From NCBI GenBank assembly GCA_900313005.1, contig ONZJ01000002.1, positions 1,256,996-1,320,995 of the forward strand: DNA of 64,000 nucleotides, in the 5' to 3' direction. Shown piece after piece: positions 1,851 through 10,315 of the stretch. Position 1 is the first letter of the stretch; the number at the start of each line of letters is the position of its first letter. The notes under the pieces were generated by a model that ran no database searches, was not told the DNA's origin, and was given only the letters and a program-made list of their open reading frames with translations. The stretch comes from Rhodobacteraceae bacterium EL129 (GTDB taxonomy: Bacteria > Pseudomonadota > Alphaproteobacteria > Rhodobacterales > Rhodobacteraceae). The position numbers and the translations under genes are program-made.

Positions 1851-3158
1851 ATGGATTGGTTTCTTTGGGCTTTGTTGATCGTCACGGTTTGCGTGGTCGT
1901 CGCGGCCGTGCTGAACGGGTTTGTGGCTCCGCTCAAAGTTCATTTTCGCACGACCATGATGACACGGCCTGCACCTGCTGCGCTGGACGAGGCAGCTGAT
2001 CCATTTGTCGGCCTTGCTCTTTCCGGTGGGGGTGCGCGGGCGGCCGTTTTTGGTGCGGCCGGGATGAAAGCCCTTCATGATCGTGGGCTACTTGCCGCAG
2101 TGACCCATGTGTCCAGCGTCAGTGGCGGCGGTTTCCCAGCGTCTTATCTGGCGCTTCACCCTTTGCCGGGGGCTGACGCGGCTGCGGACTATTTCAAACA
2201 GATGCAAAACGTGGTCGCGCATGATTATTTCTGGGACGTGCAAATGCAGCAGCTGCGCAAGCCTCACCGCGCGTTCAGCCCTTCGCGGCGTCTTGTGTCC
2301 TTGCAGGAGGTTCTCAACCGAGAAGACTTTCTGGATCGCGCGACATTCGCCGATTTGCCCACGGATCGCAGGTTCTTCTTTAACACGGTCAGCTATGATA
2401 CCGGGCAGCGCGTCACCTTCAGCAACGGCGCGCTGCCTGCGCCCGACGACGTCGAGGCCGCCAGCGTGCTGCCGCCCCGTTTGCGGTCCATGTCATTTTC
2501 CGAGGCAGATCAGTTGCGCCCGGCGCCAGATGACTTTCCGATGTCTCTTGCGGTTGGCACGTCAGCGGCTTTTCCGCCCTACCTGGGGCCCGCAACGATC
2601 GAGGTGGTGCAGCCTGGAAGGCAGGGCACTCAATATTGGCATCTGGGCGACGGCGGCGTTTTTGAAAACCCGGGCGTCGAAACATTGCGCGAGGCGATCT
2701 ATGCACGCGGCCCGGGGCAATCAGCGACCATCTATGGGTTCAATGCGGGCATGCAGCTGGACAGCAACCTGTCCAGGAACACCCTCGATATCAGCATCTG
2801 GAGCCGTGATGTCACACGGCTGGTTGATGTGCTGACCGAATACGCCACGTCGCACCGCGAGACTATGTTTGACGCGCTGGACGAAAAACATGGGATGCAC
2901 ATCGACTTTGTCGATTTCAACTACATGGACATCGTGCGGCTGACACAATCCGGGAACCCGCCACACCCGCGATGGCTGAGTTGGCGCGGCTGGCACCATT
3001 CCACGGCGGCGGACCGCGCCCAAAGTTTGACGCCTGCAGAGCATCTGGTCAAGATCCCCACTGCGTTCAAGATCTCACGCGGCCACAAAGAGCTGATTGC
3101 CGCCGCCGCAGAAGACTTGGTCGAACTTCGCTTTCCCGCCGCATCATTTTGTCCCTGA
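1851..3158 (+). CDS. Membrane-anchored patatin-like phospholipase
   Basis: The 435-residue protein starts with a membrane helix (residues 3-25) and carries the elements of patatin/cPLA2 acyl hydrolases: the glycine-rich oxyanion loop SGGGARAA (58-65), the nucleophile elbow VSGGG (Ser91), the SAAFPPY segment (238-244) and the catalytic Asp in DGG (267-269). A serine-aspartate dyad lipase attached to the inner membrane is therefore likely, acting on phospholipid or other acyl esters. The gene stands alone, divergent from the LysE pair. The natural substrate and which side of the membrane holds the catalytic domain are not known; no signal-peptidase site is apparent. Confidence 0.85.
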   Translation: MDWFLWALLIVTVCVVVAAVLNGFVAPLKVHFRTTMMTRPAPAALDEAADPFVGLALSGGGARAAVFGAAGMKALHDRGLLAAVTHVSSVSGGGFPASYLALHPLPGADAAADYFKQMQNVVAHDYFWDVQMQQLRKPHRAFSPSRRLVSLQEVLNREDFLDRATFADLPTDRRFFFNTVSYDTGQRVTFSNGALPAPDDVEAASVLPPRLRSMSFSEADQLRPAPDDFPMSLAVGTSAAFPPYLGPATIEVVQPGRQGTQYWHLGDGGVFENPGVETLREAIYARGPGQSATIYGFNAGMQLDSNLSRNTLDISIWSRDVTRLVDVLTEYATSHRETMFDALDEKHGMHIDFVDFNYMDIVRLTQSGNPPHPRWLSWRGWHHSTAADRAQSLTPAEHLVKIPTAFKISRGHKELIAAAAEDLVELRFPAASFCP

Positions 3159-3561: not shown

Positions 3562-4359
3562 TCAAAATGGGTTGGGTCCTAGGCCTGCCTCGATCGGTAT
3601 TCGTATCGAACGAAAGCCGTTTTGCCAGAGGTGAAGCATAAAACCATCTTCCTGCTCCCAAAAACCCACTGGAGCATCGGGTGTTGTATCATAAGCAAAA
3701 CAACTGCTCGGGGATGGGGCCGAAAGGGCCGTTTTACCGCCAATGGTTGCTATTATAGTGCTGTGGATGTGGCCGCATACAATGCGGATGTCTGAATCAA
3801 ATCTCTGCAACAGATCCGCCAGTGGTTTGTGGTCTTGAAGGCCAAGTTCATCCATGAAGGCGATCCCGCTATCGAACGGCGGGTGATGCAGCGCCAATAA
3901 AGTGGGTCTGGACTGGCCTTTGATCAGCGCCTGTTCCAGGAAATCCAAAGTGGTTTCGTCAATCACCCCGCGGCCTTCACCCTCGATCAAAGTATCCAGG
4001 CCGATAAGATTGATGTCGCCAAGTTGGATGTGCCAGTTCAGTTTGCCAGATGAAGGCAGATAGCTGTGATCCGCAAAAGCGGCCCGCATGGGCGTACGCA
4101 AGTCGTGATTGCCCGAGATGACAAACAACGGCAATTTGAGCGGCGCTATAAGGGATTTGAAATGTGCATAGCTTTCTGGGGCACCGTCGTCGGTTAGGTC
4201 TCCGCTGACGAGCACGGCGTCGATCGGGCCAAGTTGAGGCTTGATCTGTTCGATCCGTGCGACCAGCTTGCGGAGTGAGCCTGCGGTATCAAGCTGTCCG
4301 GAAACCAGTCTTCCCGGGGCCACGATATGAGTGTCCGTGATTTGCAGGACTGCCGTCAC
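3562..4359 (-). CDS. Cytosolic calcineurin-like phosphodiesterase (GpdQ-like)
   Basis: The 265-residue protein has all metal-binding motifs of the calcineurin-like/class III phosphodiesterase fold: D9-x-H11 (TDTHI), GD at 53-54, GNHD (83-86), HHPP (158-161) and GHIH (196-199). Relatives include the glycerophosphodiesterase GpdQ and cyclic-AMP phosphodiesterase CpdA. No signal peptide is present, so it acts in the cytoplasm. It is the last gene of the DeoR-ABC operon, and its ATG overlaps the stop of the upstream permease by four bases. I infer that it hydrolyses phosphodiesters brought in by the transporter, such as glycerophosphocholine, but cyclic nucleotides remain possible. Confidence 0.8.
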   Translation of the reverse strand: MTAVLQITDTHIVAPGRLVSGQLDTAGSLRKLVARIEQIKPQLGPIDAVLVSGDLTDDGAPESYAHFKSLIAPLKLPLFVISGNHDLRTPMRAAFADHSYLPSSGKLNWHIQLGDINLIGLDTLIEGEGRGVIDETTLDFLEQALIKGQSRPTLLALHHPPFDSGIAFMDELGLQDHKPLADLLQRFDSDIRIVCGHIHSTIIATIGGKTALSAPSPSSCFAYDTTPDAPVGFWEQEDGFMLHLWQNGFRSIRIPIEAGLGPNPF

Positions 4360-5165
4360 TTGATCCCCGCCCGCAAGAAGGCTTGTACAAACTGACGCTG
4401 GAACAGCAGGAAGGCGATCAACAACGGGGCCACCGACATCATTGTGGCGGCTGAAATCACACTGATATCCACGCCGTTCTCAGGCGCGCCAAAGATCGAC
4501 AGACCCACGGTAAGAGGCCGTGTATCGGGTGAATTGGTTACGATCAGCGGCCACAAAAAATTGTTCCAATGGGTCGAAACCGAGACCAGCGCATAAGCCA
4601 GATAAGTGGGTTTGGCCAAAGGCACATAAACGCGCCAGAGGATGCCGAGCAGGCCGCAGCCTTCGATACGGGCGGCCTCGTGCAGTTCAATCGGAACGGA
4701 TTTGAACGACTGACGCATAAGAAAAATGCCAAAGGCGCTGGCCATATAGGGCATGCCGACGCCGAGGATCGTGTCGAACATACCAAGCCGGGACACCATG
4801 GCGTAGTTCTCGACAATAAGCACTTCGGGCAGGATGAACAGCTGCATCAAAACCAGGATGAACACGAAGTTTTTGCCGGGAAAGTCAAGTTTGGCAAAGG
4901 CAAAACCCGCCAGCGTTGTCAGGATGAACTGGCCGATCAGCACCACTGTCACCAACATGAAAGTGTTGAGGAAATAGCGCAGCCACGGTGCGCCGTCCCA
5001 AGCTGTGCGGAAGTTGTCCAAGGTCCAGGGCGATAGCAGGTTGAAGTTCACCGCATCTGATGTGGAATGAAACGCCGCCCAGACCGCGAACATCAGGGGC
5101 GATATCCAGATCACCGCCAGCAGGATGGCCGCCCCCGGCTCGACGTATTTCAACACAGCGTTCAT
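4356..5165 (-). CDS. ABC transporter permease, UgpE-like
   Basis: A 269-residue inner-membrane protein with six predicted helices and the permease EAA loop (EAARIEGCG from residue 163, then the VPLAKP end) that docks on the ATPase. It matches the MalG/UgpE class of carbohydrate permeases in length and layout. It overlaps the upstream permease gene by four bases and the downstream phosphodiesterase by four bases, so the cluster is translated as a coupled set. Together with the binding protein and ATPase it most resembles a glycerol-3-phosphate/glycerophosphodiester importer. Confidence 0.85.
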   Translation of the reverse strand: MNAVLKYVEPGAAILLAVIWISPLMFAVWAAFHSTSDAVNFNLLSPWTLDNFRTAWDGAPWLRYFLNTFMLVTVVLIGQFILTTLAGFAFAKLDFPGKNFVFILVLMQLFILPEVLIVENYAMVSRLGMFDTILGVGMPYMASAFGIFLMRQSFKSVPIELHEAARIEGCGLLGILWRVYVPLAKPTYLAYALVSVSTHWNNFLWPLIVTNSPDTRPLTVGLSIFGAPENGVDISVISAATMMSVAPLLIAFLLFQRQFVQAFLRAGIK

Positions 5166-6055
5166 TGGTAATGTGTCCGGCGGTCAAGGTAGAAGAACTG
5201 GATCGCGGCCACGATACACAACACCGCCAGCACAAGGATCGTCATGGCCGCCGCATGGGGCGCGTCAAAGAAGGCGAACGCCATTTCCCAGATGTAATAG
5301 AGGATCAATTTAGAAGCATCCGATGGCCCGCCCTTGGTCAGGATAAACAAGTGATCGATCAGCTTGACCGAGTTGATCATCGCGTTGACCATAATGAACA
5401 GTGTCGTGGGCATGAGCAGCGGCAGCACGATCCGGCGCGTATAGGTCCAACGGCTGCAGCCTTCGATATCAGCGGCTTCCTTGAGGTCCTCGGGGATGGT
5501 CTGCAATGCAGCGAGGTAGAAGATCATGAAAAACCCCGCCTCTTTCCAGATGGTCACGATGATCACGGCCCAAAGCGCGGTTTCGGGCTGACCCAGCCAG
5601 TTGACCGAAGGCAAGCCAAAGAGCGATCCGATCTGATCCAGCACGCCCAGTCCCGGCGTGTAAAAGAACAGCCACAGGTTGGCCGCCGCGATCATCGGCA
5701 GCACTGTGGGGGTGAAATAGGCGGTGCGCACAAAGCCGCGTGCGGGGATTTTGGAGTTGGCCCAAAGCGCCATTGCAAGGGCGATGGCGATCGACACAGG
5801 GATGGTGATCGCCGCGTAAAAGAGGTTGTTTTTGACCACGATCCAGAAGGTCGGATCAGCGAACAGATCGGTATAATTCTCGAGCTCGATAAACTCGGAC
5901 GGCTTGCGTCGGGTTTTCTTGGAAAAGAGGCTTGAGATGAACGTCGCAATCGACGGGTAGAACGCAAACAAAGACAGCAGAACGGCAGCGGGCGACAACA
6001 AAAGCCAGCCGTAGATGGCTTGGCGTCGTCGCTCCAGATTGACGTGTTTGCTCAT
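5162..6055 (-). CDS. ABC transporter permease, UgpA-like
   Basis: A 297-residue inner-membrane permease with an early hydrophobic helix (YGWLLLSPAAVLLSLF, residues 15-30) and an EAA loop (EAADIEGCSRW from residue 193). It corresponds to the MalF/UgpA partner, which forms the channel with the UgpE-like subunit. The stop overlaps the start of that partner by four bases. It follows the binding-protein gene after 57 bases. Confidence 0.85.
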   Translation of the reverse strand: MSKHVNLERRRQAIYGWLLLSPAAVLLSLFAFYPSIATFISSLFSKKTRRKPSEFIELENYTDLFADPTFWIVVKNNLFYAAITIPVSIAIALAMALWANSKIPARGFVRTAYFTPTVLPMIAAANLWLFFYTPGLGVLDQIGSLFGLPSVNWLGQPETALWAVIIVTIWKEAGFFMIFYLAALQTIPEDLKEAADIEGCSRWTYTRRIVLPLLMPTTLFIMVNAMINSVKLIDHLFILTKGGPSDASKLILYYIWEMAFAFFDAPHAAAMTILVLAVLCIVAAIQFFYLDRRTHYQ

Positions 6056-6112
6056 ATTCTTGCGCCTTGAAAAATAACCGGCCCCACGGGGTGCGCAGGG
6101 CCGGAGGTTGCT

Positions 6113-7366
6113 TTAGCGGTAGGCTTTCAGCAAGCGATCCGCGGCTTCTTGTGCCTCACCCAAAGCTGCAGCAGGCTCTTTCGCACCTGTTAGGGCCGAT
6201 TGGATGGCGTTGTTCAGACCATCGCGCACACGGGCTGTCTCGAAGGTTGAGAATTCGGCCACCGCATTTTCCAGCTGGTTACGAGCCACGAGGGCCGGAG
6301 GAAATTCAGCCGTGTAAGCTTTCAATGCATCGGTTTCATAGGCGGCGGGTGACACGCCCATGTACCCTGTTGCGATGGACCATTCTGCCGCTTGCTCGGG
6401 CGCTGTCATGAACTGGATCAGCTTCAATGCCGCAGCCTGCTCTTCAGCTGAGGTGTCCTTGAACACATAGAAGTTGCCGCCACCCGTGGGCGAACCTTTG
6501 CGGACATTGGCAGGCAGTTCGGCCACACCGAAATCAAAGCTGGCGTTCTTTTTTACTGCCGTCAGGTTGCCTGTTGAATGCCACATCATAGCAGTCTGGC
6601 CTTCAAGGAAGGCCTGACGCAGAGTGCCCCATTCAACCGTGCCCGTTGGCATGATGCCATGCTCGGCCGACAGTGATTGCCAGAATTTCAACGTGTCCAC
6701 CACAGCGTCATCGCTGAAGTTGGTTGTCAGGCCGTCGTTCGACATGACTTCCTTGCCGTTTTGAATGGCCAGCGCCTGGAACATCCAATAGGGATAACCC
6801 GTGGACGGGATCATCAGACCGTAAGTGTCATCCTTGGTCAGCGCTTTGCCCATCGAGATCATCTCATCCCAAGTGGTAGGCGGGCTTTCAGGGTCCAGCC
6901 CCGCATCGCGGAACATATCCTTGTTGTAGTAGGCCACGATGGTTGAGCGCTGGAACGGGATGCCCCAGGTCTGACCTTCGATCTTACCATTGGCCATCAG
7001 GGCGGGGTAAAAGCTGTCGAGCCATGCGGTATCGTCGGTCAGATCGTCAAACGGCAGGATCAGATCCTGCTCGATCAGGTCATAGGCGTCGATTGAGAAC
7101 ATTACGGCCAGCTGAGCAGGCTCGCCCGAATTGAGAGCTGACAAGGCCCGTACGCGGGTGTCATCATAGTTGCCAGAATAGATCGCATTGACTTTGATAT
7201 CTGGATTTTCCGCCTGGAAATCCGCCACGATACCATCAACCACTTCGGTCAACGCACCGCCCACGGCGATGGGGTAATACATGGTCAGTTCTGTTTCAGC
7301 GGCGGCTGGCAATGCCATGCCCGCAGCCAGAGCCGTGGAAAGGCCCAGAGTTCTCAGATGCTTCAT
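6113..7366 (-). CDS. Extracellular solute-binding protein, UgpB-like
   Basis: A 417-residue periplasmic binding protein with a clear Sec signal peptide (positively charged MKHLR, hydrophobic core, AAA cut site near residue 23). The mature start (ETELTMYYPIAVGG) and segments such as GIPFQRSTIVAYYNKDMF and SPPTTWDEMI match family-1 solute-binding proteins of the UgpB type. It captures the substrate and delivers it to the two permeases. It is the third gene of the operon, 37 bases after the ATPase. The family resemblance points to glycerol-3-phosphate or glycerophosphodiesters; other sugars or polyols cannot be excluded from sequence alone. Confidence 0.85.
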   Translation of the reverse strand: MKHLRTLGLSTALAAGMALPAAAETELTMYYPIAVGGALTEVVDGIVADFQAENPDIKVNAIYSGNYDDTRVRALSALNSGEPAQLAVMFSIDAYDLIEQDLILPFDDLTDDTAWLDSFYPALMANGKIEGQTWGIPFQRSTIVAYYNKDMFRDAGLDPESPPTTWDEMISMGKALTKDDTYGLMIPSTGYPYWMFQALAIQNGKEVMSNDGLTTNFSDDAVVDTLKFWQSLSAEHGIMPTGTVEWGTLRQAFLEGQTAMMWHSTGNLTAVKKNASFDFGVAELPANVRKGSPTGGGNFYVFKDTSAEEQAAALKLIQFMTAPEQAAEWSIATGYMGVSPAAYETDALKAYTAEFPPALVARNQLENAVAEFSTFETARVRDGLNNAIQSALTGAKEPAAALGEAQEAADRLLKAYR

Positions 7367-7403
7367 TTTAAGTCTCCCTTATGGTGTGTTGTAGTTGGGC
7401 GAT

Positions 7404-8426
7404 TTACATCCCTGTGATGCGGTCGCCTTCTTGATTGAATTTGTGCAGTTTCGCGGTGTCGAATGCGATGTCGACGGTGACGCCTTCGTCCATTAGTGAC
7501 AGACCGGGTTGCAAAACGCTCAGGCCCGTCGTGCCCTCATGGCTCAGCCCGATCAGGGTTTCAGATCCCAAGAATTCAGCCTCGCTGACTGTGCAGGTTA
7601 GTTGTCCTTTTCCTTTCTCAACAATCGTCGCGTGTTCAGCGCGCACGCCCAGCGTCAGGTCCTTGTCAAATCCGGCAAGCACCGAAGATTGAATCAGCGC
7701 CATCGGCGGCGCGCCTACAAACTCGGCCACGAAGGTATTGGCTGGACGGTTGTAGAGGTCATCCGGTGTGCCAACCTGTTGAATGCGCCCATCTTTCATC
7801 AAGACAATCTTATCCGCCATGCTCATCGCTTCGGTCTGATCGTGGGTGACGTAGACAACAGTAATGCCAAGATCTCGTTGTAGTTTCTTGATATCTTTAC
7901 GCACTGAATTGCGAAGCTTGGCATCGAGATTCGACAAAGGTTCGTCCATCAAACACAGCCGCTGCCCGGCCACAATCGCACGCGCCAAAGCCACCCGTTG
8001 ACGCTGCCCGCCCGACAACTCTCCGGGTTTGCGGCTTTCCAGTCCGGTCAGCCCGGTGATCTCCAGTGCACGTTTCATCTTCTCGGCGCGCTCCGCCTTG
8101 GGCACACGCCGCACCTTCAGGCCAAAGATTACGTTTTCGGCCACCGATAGATGCGGGAACAAGGCGTAGGACTGAAATACCATCGACAGGTTGCGATCAG
8201 AAGCAGCTGAGGTGGTCACGTCACGGCTATCAATCAGGATCTGGCCTTCGTCTGGAATCTCCAGCCCCGCGAGCAGGCGCAGTGACGTGGACTTGCCACA
8301 GCCCGATGGGCCTAGCAACGCGACAAACGAACCCTCTTCGATTTCAAGCGAAATATCTTCGACGCCAAGCTGCCCGTTCCAGCGCTTGGCGACATCCTTG
8401 AGAATGACAAAGGGGCCGCCGTTCAT
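7404..8426 (-). CDS. ABC transporter ATPase, UgpC-like
   Basis: The 340-residue ATPase carries Walker A (GPSGCGKST, 39-47), the Q-loop (VFQSYALFPH), the signature LSGGQRQRVALARA, Walker B with LMDEPLSNLD, the switch His in YVTHDQTEAMS, and a C-terminal TOBE-type region. This is the MalK/UgpC class energising carbohydrate uptake. The start overlaps the end of the DeoR regulator gene by four bases, so the regulator is co-translated with the transporter it presumably controls. Confidence 0.9.
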   Translation of the reverse strand: MNGGPFVILKDVAKRWNGQLGVEDISLEIEEGSFVALLGPSGCGKSTSLRLLAGLEIPDEGQILIDSRDVTTSAASDRNLSMVFQSYALFPHLSVAENVIFGLKVRRVPKAERAEKMKRALEITGLTGLESRKPGELSGGQRQRVALARAIVAGQRLCLMDEPLSNLDAKLRNSVRKDIKKLQRDLGITVVYVTHDQTEAMSMADKIVLMKDGRIQQVGTPDDLYNRPANTFVAEFVGAPPMALIQSSVLAGFDKDLTLGVRAEHATIVEKGKGQLTCTVSEAEFLGSETLIGLSHEGTTGLSVLQPGLSLMDEGVTVDIAFDTAKLHKFNQEGDRITGM

Positions 8427-9202
8427 GCCAGCTCACTTTCTGCCAGGATCACCCGGTCGCTAATATCTTCGATGAGCGGGGTGAAGGCCGCTTTGGGGGG
8501 GCGATCTAGAATGATGTGATCAATGTCGCTAATGTTTTCCCCGGCAGCAGGGGCAAGACGACCGAACTTGGAGTGATCCAATACCAGCATCGAAACCTGA
8601 GAGTTTTCCCGGATACGTTGACGTGCTGACACCTCGGCGGTGTGGAACTCCAGCAGACTGCCATCCTCTTCAACGCCTGCAACACCAAAAATACCGTATT
8701 CGGCGCGATAACGGCCAAAGAACTCGACCACCTCGTCACCCAGAATATCACGATCGGGCAAACGCAATTCGCCCCCGGGCAGTATGATCCGGTTGGATGT
8801 CTCATCACTGAGCGCCATTGCAGCGCTAAGGTTGTTCGTGATCACCGTCAGTTTTGTTCGGCGATGCAGGGCCCGCGCGACACTCAACGGTGTTGATCCG
8901 ATCGAAATAAAGATCGTTGCCCCATCCGGGATCAATTCGGCAGCCGCTTCGCCGATCGCCTGTTTGCCTATTGGGTTTGTTGCAGTGCGTTGATCGAATG
9001 GCGTGTTGAGGTGCTGTGCATCAAGCTCGATTCGGCCATGCCGACGACGCAGTGTGTCGCCTTCACAAAGCAGGTCAATATCACGCCGAATAGTTTGCAT
9101 TGAAACTCCAAGCGTTTCCGCCAGCGCACCGACGCTCATCACGCCGCGTTCCTGCACCAGGCCAAGAATGCATTCGTGGCGCTTTCGCCTTTTTTCAGAC
9201 AT
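8423..9202 (-). CDS. DeoR/GlpR-type transcriptional regulator
   Basis: A 259-residue regulator with the DeoR winged helix at residues 8-55 (ECILGLVQERGVMSVGALAE, then VSMQTIRRDIDLL) and the DeoR sensor domain (TIFISIGSTPLSVARAL; GVEEDGSLLEF; LVLDHSKFGR), which binds a phosphorylated sugar or polyol. It heads the six-gene operon and faces the HAD phosphatase gene. GlpR-like regulators repress glycerol-phosphate genes until the phosphorylated ligand appears, which fits this context. The likely operator is the 14-bp inverted repeat between the two divergent genes. Confidence 0.88.
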   Translation of the reverse strand: MSEKRRKRHECILGLVQERGVMSVGALAETLGVSMQTIRRDIDLLCEGDTLRRRHGRIELDAQHLNTPFDQRTATNPIGKQAIGEAAAELIPDGATIFISIGSTPLSVARALHRRTKLTVITNNLSAAMALSDETSNRIILPGGELRLPDRDILGDEVVEFFGRYRAEYGIFGVAGVEEDGSLLEFHTAEVSARQRIRENSQVSMLVLDHSKFGRLAPAAGENISDIDHIILDRPPKAAFTPLIEDISDRVILAESELA

Positions 9203-9252
9203 TTACCAAAATCCAATAGAATCGCCTCCAAACGCTAGAAGGGAAATAACGC

Positions 9253-9340
9253 CAAAACAACAAAATTTTGCAACAAACGTCCGTTTACTCCTAATTTATA
9301 CAGGAGATTTCTAACTGCCCCTCTTTATTTTGTTGTTTTG
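9253..9340. promoter_or_regulatory. 14-bp inverted repeat, candidate DeoR operator pair
   Basis: CAAAACAACAAAAT at 9253-9266 is matched base for base by its reverse complement ATTTTGTTGTTTTG at 9327-9340. The arm centres are 74 bp apart, about seven helical turns. Both arms are runs of short TTTTG/TTG steps, like known DeoR-family sites. The pair lies between the start codons of the regulator (9202) and the HAD gene (9431), where both promoters must be. Binding to two sites with looping is an inference. Confidence 0.5.
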
Positions 9341-9430
9341 ATCGATTTGTGGCTTTTTATTTCTTGTGCGCTTGTTACAGTCACATCTGCGGCGCCGTCG
9401 GGGGTCGTTCAAAGTAAGGGCGACCTCAAG

Positions 9431-10315
9431 ATGCAAAGCGCACCAGCGATTTTTGACCGGTATGAGGAAGTGCGCCCACGCTTTCCTACGGTACCATCAC
9501 GCAGTCAGACCAAAGAGATTTCATCTCTCATCGATATCGCTGATGAGGCTTCTGCCTTTGTATTTGATGCTTTTGGAGTTCTAAACGTGGGCGAGACCCT
9601 GATCGAAGGGGCCGACCTTCGGTTGGAGCAATTGCGGGCACTGGAATGTCAGATCCGCATTCTGACAAACGCCGCCAGCTATGATCGTGACGGCGCTGTC
9701 GCCAAATTTCAGAAACTGGGAATATCGGTATTCGAGGAAGAAATTATCACCAGTAGAGATGCGACGCTGCCTTGCCAGACCCCTGGCACTTGGGGCGCAA
9801 TCGCCGCGCCTGAAGACGAAATGGCCGACATAACTTGTGATGTTCGGCGCCTCGGAGATGATCCGGAGGTGTATGATCAGGTTAGCGGTTTTTTGTTTCT
9901 GTCTTCCAGCGGCTGGACGAACGCCAGACAGGCACTACTCGAAACCTCATTGCTGAAACGCGACCGTCCGGTACTTATCGCAAACGCCGATCTAGTCGCT
10001 CCGCGTGACGACGGATTTTCGCTCGAACCGGGGCATTATGGCCATTTGCTTGTAGACCGTGGCCTGAAGCAGGTTCGCTTTTTTGGAAAACCCTTTCCCG
10101 AAGTGTATCAATTGGTCGAAAGGTCTCTACCTGATATTCCTGCAGACCGTATCATTATGTGCGGCGATACGCTTCACACCGATATTCTTGGGGCGATTGC
10201 ACGAGGGTGGCGGGCCGTTCTAGTGACGCAAGATGGCCTTTTTGCAGGCCACGACACAGATGAATTTTGTGCAAAGTCGAAGTTGGCACCAGATTGGCAC
10301 CTAGCCAGAATTTAG
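9431..10315 (+). CDS. HAD-family (NagD-like, class IIA) phosphatase
   Basis: The chosen ATG at 9431 gives 294 residues; the frame is open back to 9338, but that part reads as unlikely hydrophobic sequence across the promoter region. HAD motifs are visible: motif I FDAFGVLN, motif II ILTNAAS, motif III with Lys in FFGKPFPEVY, and motif IV CGDTLHTDILGA. The second motif-I Asp of most HAD phosphatases is Phe here, as in a NagD-related subfamily with DLWGV-type motifs. The gene diverges from the DeoR-ABC-phosphodiesterase operon, so dephosphorylation of the released phosphoalcohol is a reasonable inference. Confidence 0.8.
   Translation: MQSAPAIFDRYEEVRPRFPTVPSRSQTKEISSLIDIADEASAFVFDAFGVLNVGETLIEGADLRLEQLRALECQIRILTNAASYDRDGAVAKFQKLGISVFEEEIITSRDATLPCQTPGTWGAIAAPEDEMADITCDVRRLGDDPEVYDQVSGFLFLSSSGWTNARQALLETSLLKRDRPVLIANADLVAPRDDGFSLEPGHYGHLLVDRGLKQVRFFGKPFPEVYQLVERSLPDIPADRIIMCGDTLHTDILGAIARGWRAVLVTQDGLFAGHDTDEFCAKSKLAPDWHLARI

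Follow-up and report, generated by a model that had tools for sequence, protein, structure and literature searches.

The locus described here occupies part of a 64,000-nucleotide stretch (the window) of contig ONZJ01000002.1 from Rhodobacteraceae bacterium EL129. It comprises the genes of a DeoR/GlpR-type regulator, a Ugp-like ABC importer, a metallophosphoesterase and a divergently encoded HAD hydrolase. All seven genes named in a preliminary description of this DNA were recovered at the places given there from open reading frames and profile models (Table 1). Six of them are encoded on the minus strand, where the regulator gene is followed by those of the ATPase, the binding protein, the two permeases and the metallophosphoesterase. 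Because this order is accompanied by 4-base overlaps at three junctions (8423-8426, 5162-5165 and 4356-4359), the six genes likely form a single transcription unit.

Table 1 Features of the locus (window positions)
Feature	Position	Strand	Scores and remarks
Metallophosphoesterase, class III/GpdQ-fold phosphodiesterase, final operon gene, read as cytosolic	3562..4359	-	PF00149 69 bits
UgpE-like ABC permease	4356..5165	-	PF00528 42.4 bits; NF008210 UgpE 108.9 bits (cut-off 297)
UgpA-like ABC permease	5162..6055	-	PF00528 75.7 bits; NF007852 UgpA 115.4 bits (cut-off 335)
UgpB-related periplasmic substrate-binding protein	6113..7366	-	PF13416 166 bits; NF008211 UgpB 154.6 bits (cut-off 411)
UgpC/MalK-type ABC ATPase carrying a TOBE domain	7404..8426	-	PF00005 126.5 bits; TOBE_2 36.6 bits; NF008653 358.4 bits (cut-off 432)
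DeoR/GlpR-type regulator, first operon gene	8423..9202	-	DeoRC 143.5 bits; HTH_DeoR 50.4 bits; NF008154 GlpR 211.9 bits (cut-off 331)
Operator-like CAAAACAACAAAA copy nearer the DeoR start	9253..9265	+	One of two exact genome copies
Operator-like CAAAACAACAAAA copy nearer the HAD start	9328..9340	-	Other exact genome copy
Divergent HAD-IIA-type hydrolase, motif I DAFGVL	9431..10315	+	PF13344 52.4 bits; TIGR01460 89.7 bits (cut-off 100.15)

A scan of named genomes with the binding protein returned 262 relatives, the best 80 of which were taken as named loci; most of these carry Rhodobacterales names, the nearest being Roseovarius, and among them are loci of Roseovarius sp. 217 (L144) and Ruegeria atlantica (L124 and L149). 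Counts refer to the 62 named loci with full flanks (18 with short flanks were excluded) and are conditional on the binding protein as the query that picked them. The DeoR regulator, the ATPase and both permeases were in place in 62/62 loci and the metallophosphoesterase in 58 (57 by script, plus L091, where the gene lies 121 bases beyond the script limit). At the divergent position, 45 loci carry an HAD-IIA gene and three an HAD-IIB gene. A Na/Pi transporter gene directly follows the phosphoesterase gene in 37 loci and is itself followed by GlpD in three (L104, L111 and L141); matches to GDPD or EEP queries were found in none of the 62. This gene arrangement is not a product of chance. At E 1e-150 the binding protein was detected in 14 of 149 genomes of a family sample, and at E 1e-40 the phosphoesterase in 23 of 198; several further loci appear to lie on the same contigs as named ones (e.g. 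L043/L121, L046/L136 and L049/L158), and the two sets are not to be summed. Mean identity over 120 pairs from 16 loci, the window included, was 84% for the binding protein versus 48% for the phosphoesterase, i.e. conservation is far stronger in the importer than in the enzyme.

The regulator matches HTH_DeoR and DeoRC above their cut-offs and does not reach the GlpR equivalog NF008154. The gap between its gene and the HAD gene contains two copies of the 13-mer CAAAACAACAAAA, opposite in orientation and facing each other, which are the only exact copies in the 3.94-Mb genome. With one mismatch allowed, six further places were found in the genome versus 12 matches for a backward-read control, and hence only the exact sites are meaningful. 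A 10-base core (at most one mismatch) occurs in 49 of 54 divergent gaps, those of the window and 53 named loci, whereas 100 shuffled sets average 3.7 such gaps and reach 10 at most; the relatedness of the sequences inflates counts of this kind. Many gaps hold a further copy at a spacing of 8 bases. Two genome copies, one nearer each divergent start, fit a dedicated repressor, and from their position we infer that the DeoR protein binds the pair. In the 9203-9430 gap no Pho box was found with up to three mismatches allowed, and the nine Pho-box matches across the window do not clearly exceed the chance expectation (mean 4.7, with 9 reached in 6 of 100 shuffles). Together, the conserved gene order and the paired operators bear out the coupled locus of the preliminary description.

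The metallophosphoesterase retains D9, H11, D54, N84, H85, H158, H197 and H199 as metal ligands, all invariant in 22 aligned sequences including its own, and thereby fits the dimetal ligand pattern of class III phosphodiesterases (D-x-H, GD, GNH, H, GHxH). For its structure model (predicted local distance difference test, pLDDT, 94.2) the best PDB match was GpdQ (VIA Z 35.7, root-mean-square deviation 1.8 over 260 residues, 25% identity), followed by Rv0805 (Z 33.7), and Foldseek likewise ranked GpdQ first. The protein stays below the equivalog cut-offs of CpdA (121.1/225 bits) and SpdA (107.5/400 bits). Since it begins directly with the catalytic domain and shows no signal peptide, we regard it as cytosolic, and the earlier call of a cytosolic GpdQ-like metallophosphodiesterase agrees with the model. 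Fold and complete metal ligands suggest that it hydrolyses a diester in the cytosol; the fold does not tell the substrate. With GpdQ of Enterobacter aerogenes, as with Rv0805, CpdA and SpdA, the enzyme shares the fold and all metal ligands; it differs from GpdQ in sequence (25% identity) and in being encoded last in an ABC importer operon, and it is known here from sequence and model.

More distant relatives were collected in a class-level search with the binding protein, which matched 33 of 385 genomes at E 1e-100, the own genome and one near genome included. This search gave 30 distant loci (L167-L196; G565 left out) with binding proteins 48-73% identical to that of the window. The slot after the second permease was searched by tblastn with two metallophosphoesterase, one EEP and one GDPD queries, which a very different enzyme, such as the Pantoea one described below, would escape. 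It holds a metallophosphoesterase in one locus (L167) and an EEP-family enzyme in five (L172, L177, L178, L180 and L183), PF03372 being confirmed for L172 and L180. Behind their EEP gene, L177 and L178 encode GlpD and then an HAD-IIB protein. In L185 an EEP gene lies approximately 5 kb further on, and the contig of L176 ends 600 bases after the permease. Related loci also occur on plasmids. A Nitratireductor plasmid encodes a phosphodiesterase 45% identical to that of the window. Ten further plasmid records were chosen from 40, of which 20 were listed; nine were annotated, and the PLSDB gene tables are incomplete. Among these, the Pantoea ananatis plasmid carries, directly after the permeases, a metallophosphoesterase with no BLAST match to the window enzyme at 1e-5, the Comamonas plasmid an EEP enzyme two genes on from the importer, and the Roseicitreum locus a sugar-phosphate isomerase-like gene. 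Such a recurrence of unrelated phosphodiesterase folds in one slot is the best sign of a phosphodiester cargo, and the swap of folds behind a conserved importer offers a useful handle on the identity of the ligand.

Two further genes were not counted as occupants of this slot. The GDPD gene of the Acuticoccus plasmid is convergent. In L163 (13092-14087) and L139, two loci without metallophosphoesterase, a CehA/McbA-type PHP metallohydrolase gene lies convergent after the permeases, i.e. on the opposite strand. One distant relative carries a PhnM-like gene (recognised by eye; phosphonate breakdown) downstream of the importer (L173:13299-14435).

The phosphoesterase is also found away from this importer. 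Neighbourhoods were inspected for 26 of the 28 phosphoesterase matches with flanks, the window itself and G193:C3 being left out. Since 16 of these loci lie beside a window-type importer (L041 by its permeases only) and six beside a PhnS-like importer (L051, L052, L053, L199, L200 and L203), the phosphoesterase is tied to two unrelated importers. In L052 (5902-14091), a LacI regulator, a weakly PhnS-like binding protein (85 bits against NF011620, cut-off 310), a permease, an ATPase, the metallophosphoesterase, a Na/Pi transporter and an HAD-IIA protein are encoded in one run. Genome G055 holds a second, paralogous set of DeoR, ABC, phosphodiesterase and Na/Pi genes (L197), its binding protein being 47% identical. 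The Na/Pi co-transporter YjbB is reported to promote export of inorganic phosphate (Pi; PMC11389368), and by analogy the Na/Pi transporter of the relatives probably exports surplus Pi. GlpD is encoded near the phosphodiesterase in L104, L111, L141, L177 and L178, and also in L039; this linkage is the best sign of glycerol-3-phosphate (G3P) as a product. The own genome has one GlpD match above cut-off, a full one (G000:C2:2839765, 744.5 bits).

Among NCBIfam models, the four importer subunits score highest against UgpB, UgpA, UgpE and UgpC, in each case below the curated cut-off. The "complete UgpABCE-like importer" of the preliminary description is therefore Ugp-like and not composed of Ugp equivalogs. 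The N-terminus of the binding protein is signal-like as judged by eye. A canonical UgpB (532 bits, cut-off 411) is encoded elsewhere in the genome (L210), in a row with two permease-like genes and an ATPase gene, all three identified by eye, and a GDPD gene. Both GDPD genes of the genome lie away from the window operon, which ends with a PF00149 gene. As the genome also holds this canonical ugp set with a GDPD-type ugpQ, the window locus is a second, distinct system, and the two arrangements coexist in one cell; the contrast drawn earlier with the usual ugp arrangement and its GDPD-type UgpQ thus holds.

In a PDB search the binding protein matched best UgpB of E. coli (4aq4, 3e-36) and then UgpB of Phaeobacter (9lff, 1e-31); 7c16 and 7c0y, presumably a dinucleotide-binding protein of Thermus, were matched at E 9e-30 and 2e-29. 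A report on Phaeobacter UgpB (PMC12718374) gives Tyr64, Ser143, Ser266 and Tyr342 as phosphate contacts with glycerol-1-phosphate (G1P) and G3P, Glu88, Gly303 and Arg393 as glycerol contacts, and Trp188/Trp191 as a clamp. It also states that the two tyrosines and two serines are kept in glycerophosphocholine and dinucleotide binders and not in glucose binders. All four phosphate contacts align with identical residues in the window protein (Y67, S141, S264 and Y335). The equivalents of two glycerol contacts are kept as well (G296 and R381), and S91 replaces Glu88. For the tryptophan clamp the aligners disagree: HMMER aligns GYPYW (Tyr/Trp) and MAFFT gives other registers. A structure model of the binding protein was too poor to use (pLDDT 58.7), and the pocket is read from the sequence alignment. 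As the phosphate contacts are kept and the Glu88 equivalent is Ser, the ligand is likely a phosphoester whose other end is left open. The residue counts cover 103 proteins of 360-480 residues: 76 near homologues, drawn from the 80 named loci, and 27 distant ones from L167-L197. The S141 position holds Ser in 75 near homologues and Ala in one. At the S264 position, 75 near homologues have Ser and one Thr, and the distant ones Thr (15) or Ser (12). The R381 position is Arg in 76/76 near homologues and in 10/27 distant ones, with Thr in 15/27.

Translation of the HAD gene likely starts at ATG 9431 and not at the longest-ORF start 9338, since the Met1 that this start gives is almost unchanged across 20 aligned sequences (rows trimmed at the query start). 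The nucleophile D46 as well as K220 (motif III) and D246 and D251 (motif IV) are invariant in these 20 sequences, among them that of the window. The protein scores above the cut-off of PF13344 and below that of TIGR01460. In L104, L111 and L141, the divergent place is taken by an HAD-IIB gene with a DIDD motif (family model run on L111). On a metagenome contig (L129:729-1639), a second metallophosphoesterase gene, split across two frames, lies beside the HAD gene.

With moderate confidence, we read the locus as a self-regulated second organophosphate system that imports a phosphodiester whole (probably a glycerophosphodiester that serves the cell as carbon source), cleaves it in the cytosol toward G3P and disposes of surplus phosphate. 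The periplasmic binding protein would capture the phosphodiester, and the UgpAEC-like ABC transporter would import it intact. The GpdQ-fold enzyme would then split the diester, as its fold and metal ligands suggest; in the favoured version a glycerophosphodiester would yield G3P, to be oxidised by GlpD. The HAD enzyme may act on a phosphorylated product, which is the weakest step. The DeoR/GlpR-type repressor probably senses a phosphorylated product and would regulate the HAD gene as well as the operon via the dedicated operator pair. In many relatives the Na/Pi transporter, probably a Pi exporter, would complete the set, and its presence suggests that the nutrient serves for carbon and not for phosphorus alone.

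A functional precedent is the agrocinopine (acc) system of Agrobacterium. Its description (PMC4526662) lists an ABC importer, the cytosolic phosphodiesterase AccF and the putative phosphatase AccG, and names a phosphorylated cleavage product of the imported intact phosphodiester as the effector of the acc repressor. By analogy, the window locus would work in the same manner, the most likely substrate being a glycerophosphodiester that provides carbon. Both combine an importer, a cytosolic phosphodiesterase and a putative phosphatase under a repressor. The acc system differs in its tie to the Ti plasmid and quorum sensing, in its substrate and presumably in its importer family. With ugpBAECQ the locus shares a Ugp-like importer with UgpB-type phosphate contacts and a phosphodiesterase gene in the operon; it differs by its GpdQ-fold metalloenzyme instead of a GDPD, by Ser at the Glu88 equivalent and by its own DeoR regulator and operators, the divergent gap having yielded no Pho box. 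The GpxB/UgpB transporters for G1P and G3P of Phaeobacter sp. MED193 were shown to bind phosphomonoesters and include a UgpB with the same phosphate subsite; the paper mentions neither a phosphodiesterase nor a metallophosphoesterase (PMC12718374). A search of the literature at title and abstract level found no description of the gene set of the window.

Several observations weigh against reading the locus as a phosphodiester import and cleavage system. The best argument comes from loci without phosphodiesterase genes. In 24 of the 30 distant loci tblastn recognised no metallophosphoesterase and no EEP enzyme in the slot. Likewise, six of the nine annotated further plasmid loci show no phosphodiesterase within approximately 6 kb, namely those of Roseicitreum, Ruegeria TM1040, Paroceanicella, Chelatococcus, Neorhizobium and Pseudoroseomonas. 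Conversely, four of the 26 phosphoesterase loci (L048, L198, L201 and L202) lie beside neither importer type. Neither a Na/Pi nor a GlpD gene adjoins the window locus itself, and the linkage to GlpD is confined to a minority of loci. The one Na/Pi gene found in the genome is located approximately 2 Mb away (L211:5784-9319; G000:C2 at approximately 3.27 Mb) beside another ABC importer, whose large binding protein presumably resembles the rhizobial glycerol GlpV type. Motif I of HAD enzymes normally has two Asp (DxD), the second acting as acid/base, and is joined by the Lys of motif III and the Asp residues of motif IV; here it reads DAFG, with F48 for the second Asp, in 20/20 aligned sequences. 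Of the divergent HAD phosphatase of the preliminary description, the divergent HAD gene stands, and the phosphatase label is unproven because the usual acid/base Asp is absent. Finally, all 76 near homologues have Ser at the S91 position, and of the 27 distant ones 22 have Ser and five Ala; in seven further plasmid homologues it is Ser in six and Asp in that of Pantoea, the R381 position being Arg in three. As the glutamate that holds the glycerol hydroxyls in UgpB is Ser in the near and Ser or Ala in the distant homologues, the ligand may not end in glycerol. The proposal that whole glycerophosphodiesters are the ligand is accordingly not established.

This last point favours a phosphodiester of another kind, e.g. 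a sugar-phosphodiester, a 2',3'-cyclic nucleotide or a dinucleotide, handled by the same import-then-cleave logic. Such a ligand would suit a pocket with phosphate contacts retained and Ser for the glycerol-contact Glu, the nearly equal scores of the binding protein for 7c16/7c0y and Phaeobacter UgpB (9lff), the relatedness of the enzyme to the 2',3'-cyclic nucleotide phosphodiesterase SpdA and to CpdA (both below cut-off), and a genome that already has a canonical glycerophosphodiester route. GlpD beside the cassette in five of the loci named above (L104, L111, L141, L177 and L178) nevertheless points to G3P, at least there, and the kept R381 and G296 speak for glycerol in the window protein; we regard this alternative as serious and still somewhat unlikely. 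That the locus encodes a plain ABC importer for sugars or polyols, followed by a housekeeping phosphoesterase that has nothing to do with it, appears improbable. The binding protein and permeases do match sugar-type ABC families too, and the 24 of 30 distant loci without a recognisable phosphodiesterase in the slot count in its favour, but the phosphate-contact set conserved here is reported as not conserved in glucose-binding proteins (PMC12718374), and both unrelated phosphodiesterase folds in the same slot and a Na/Pi transporter recur in relatives. A redundant copy of canonical ugp for G3P or G1P, suggested by the top family matches of the subunits, is very improbable and was rejected on the subunit scores and the presence of the canonical UgpB, importer genes and GDPD elsewhere in the genome, with Ser at the Glu88 equivalent as a further point against it.

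Beyond the favoured import and cleavage of a glycerophosphodiester, a broader proposal is advanced tentatively and held with some doubt. The importer may represent a distinct ligand class in the UgpB clade, with the phosphate subsite kept and the glycerol-binding carboxylate lost, for a hitherto unrecognised phosphodiester nutrient. The phosphodiesterase, Pi exporter and HAD protein would constitute a portable module that was joined to two or more unrelated importers and whose phosphodiesterase came to be replaced by enzymes of other folds. If the favoured reading is correct, roseobacters and their relatives would use intact phosphodiesters by a dedicated route of carbon type that is separate from ugp, has no evident Pho box and gives off Pi as waste. 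Dissolved organic phosphodiesters would thereby be linked to phosphate release, and the importer, enzyme and operator would be available as testable parts.

Next to the end of the operon, a patatin-like phospholipase gene (window 1851-3158) is encoded, which could supply deacylated lipids. It was rejected as a part of the operon, being convergent with the operon end and replaced by other genes at that place in the nearest relative (L037).

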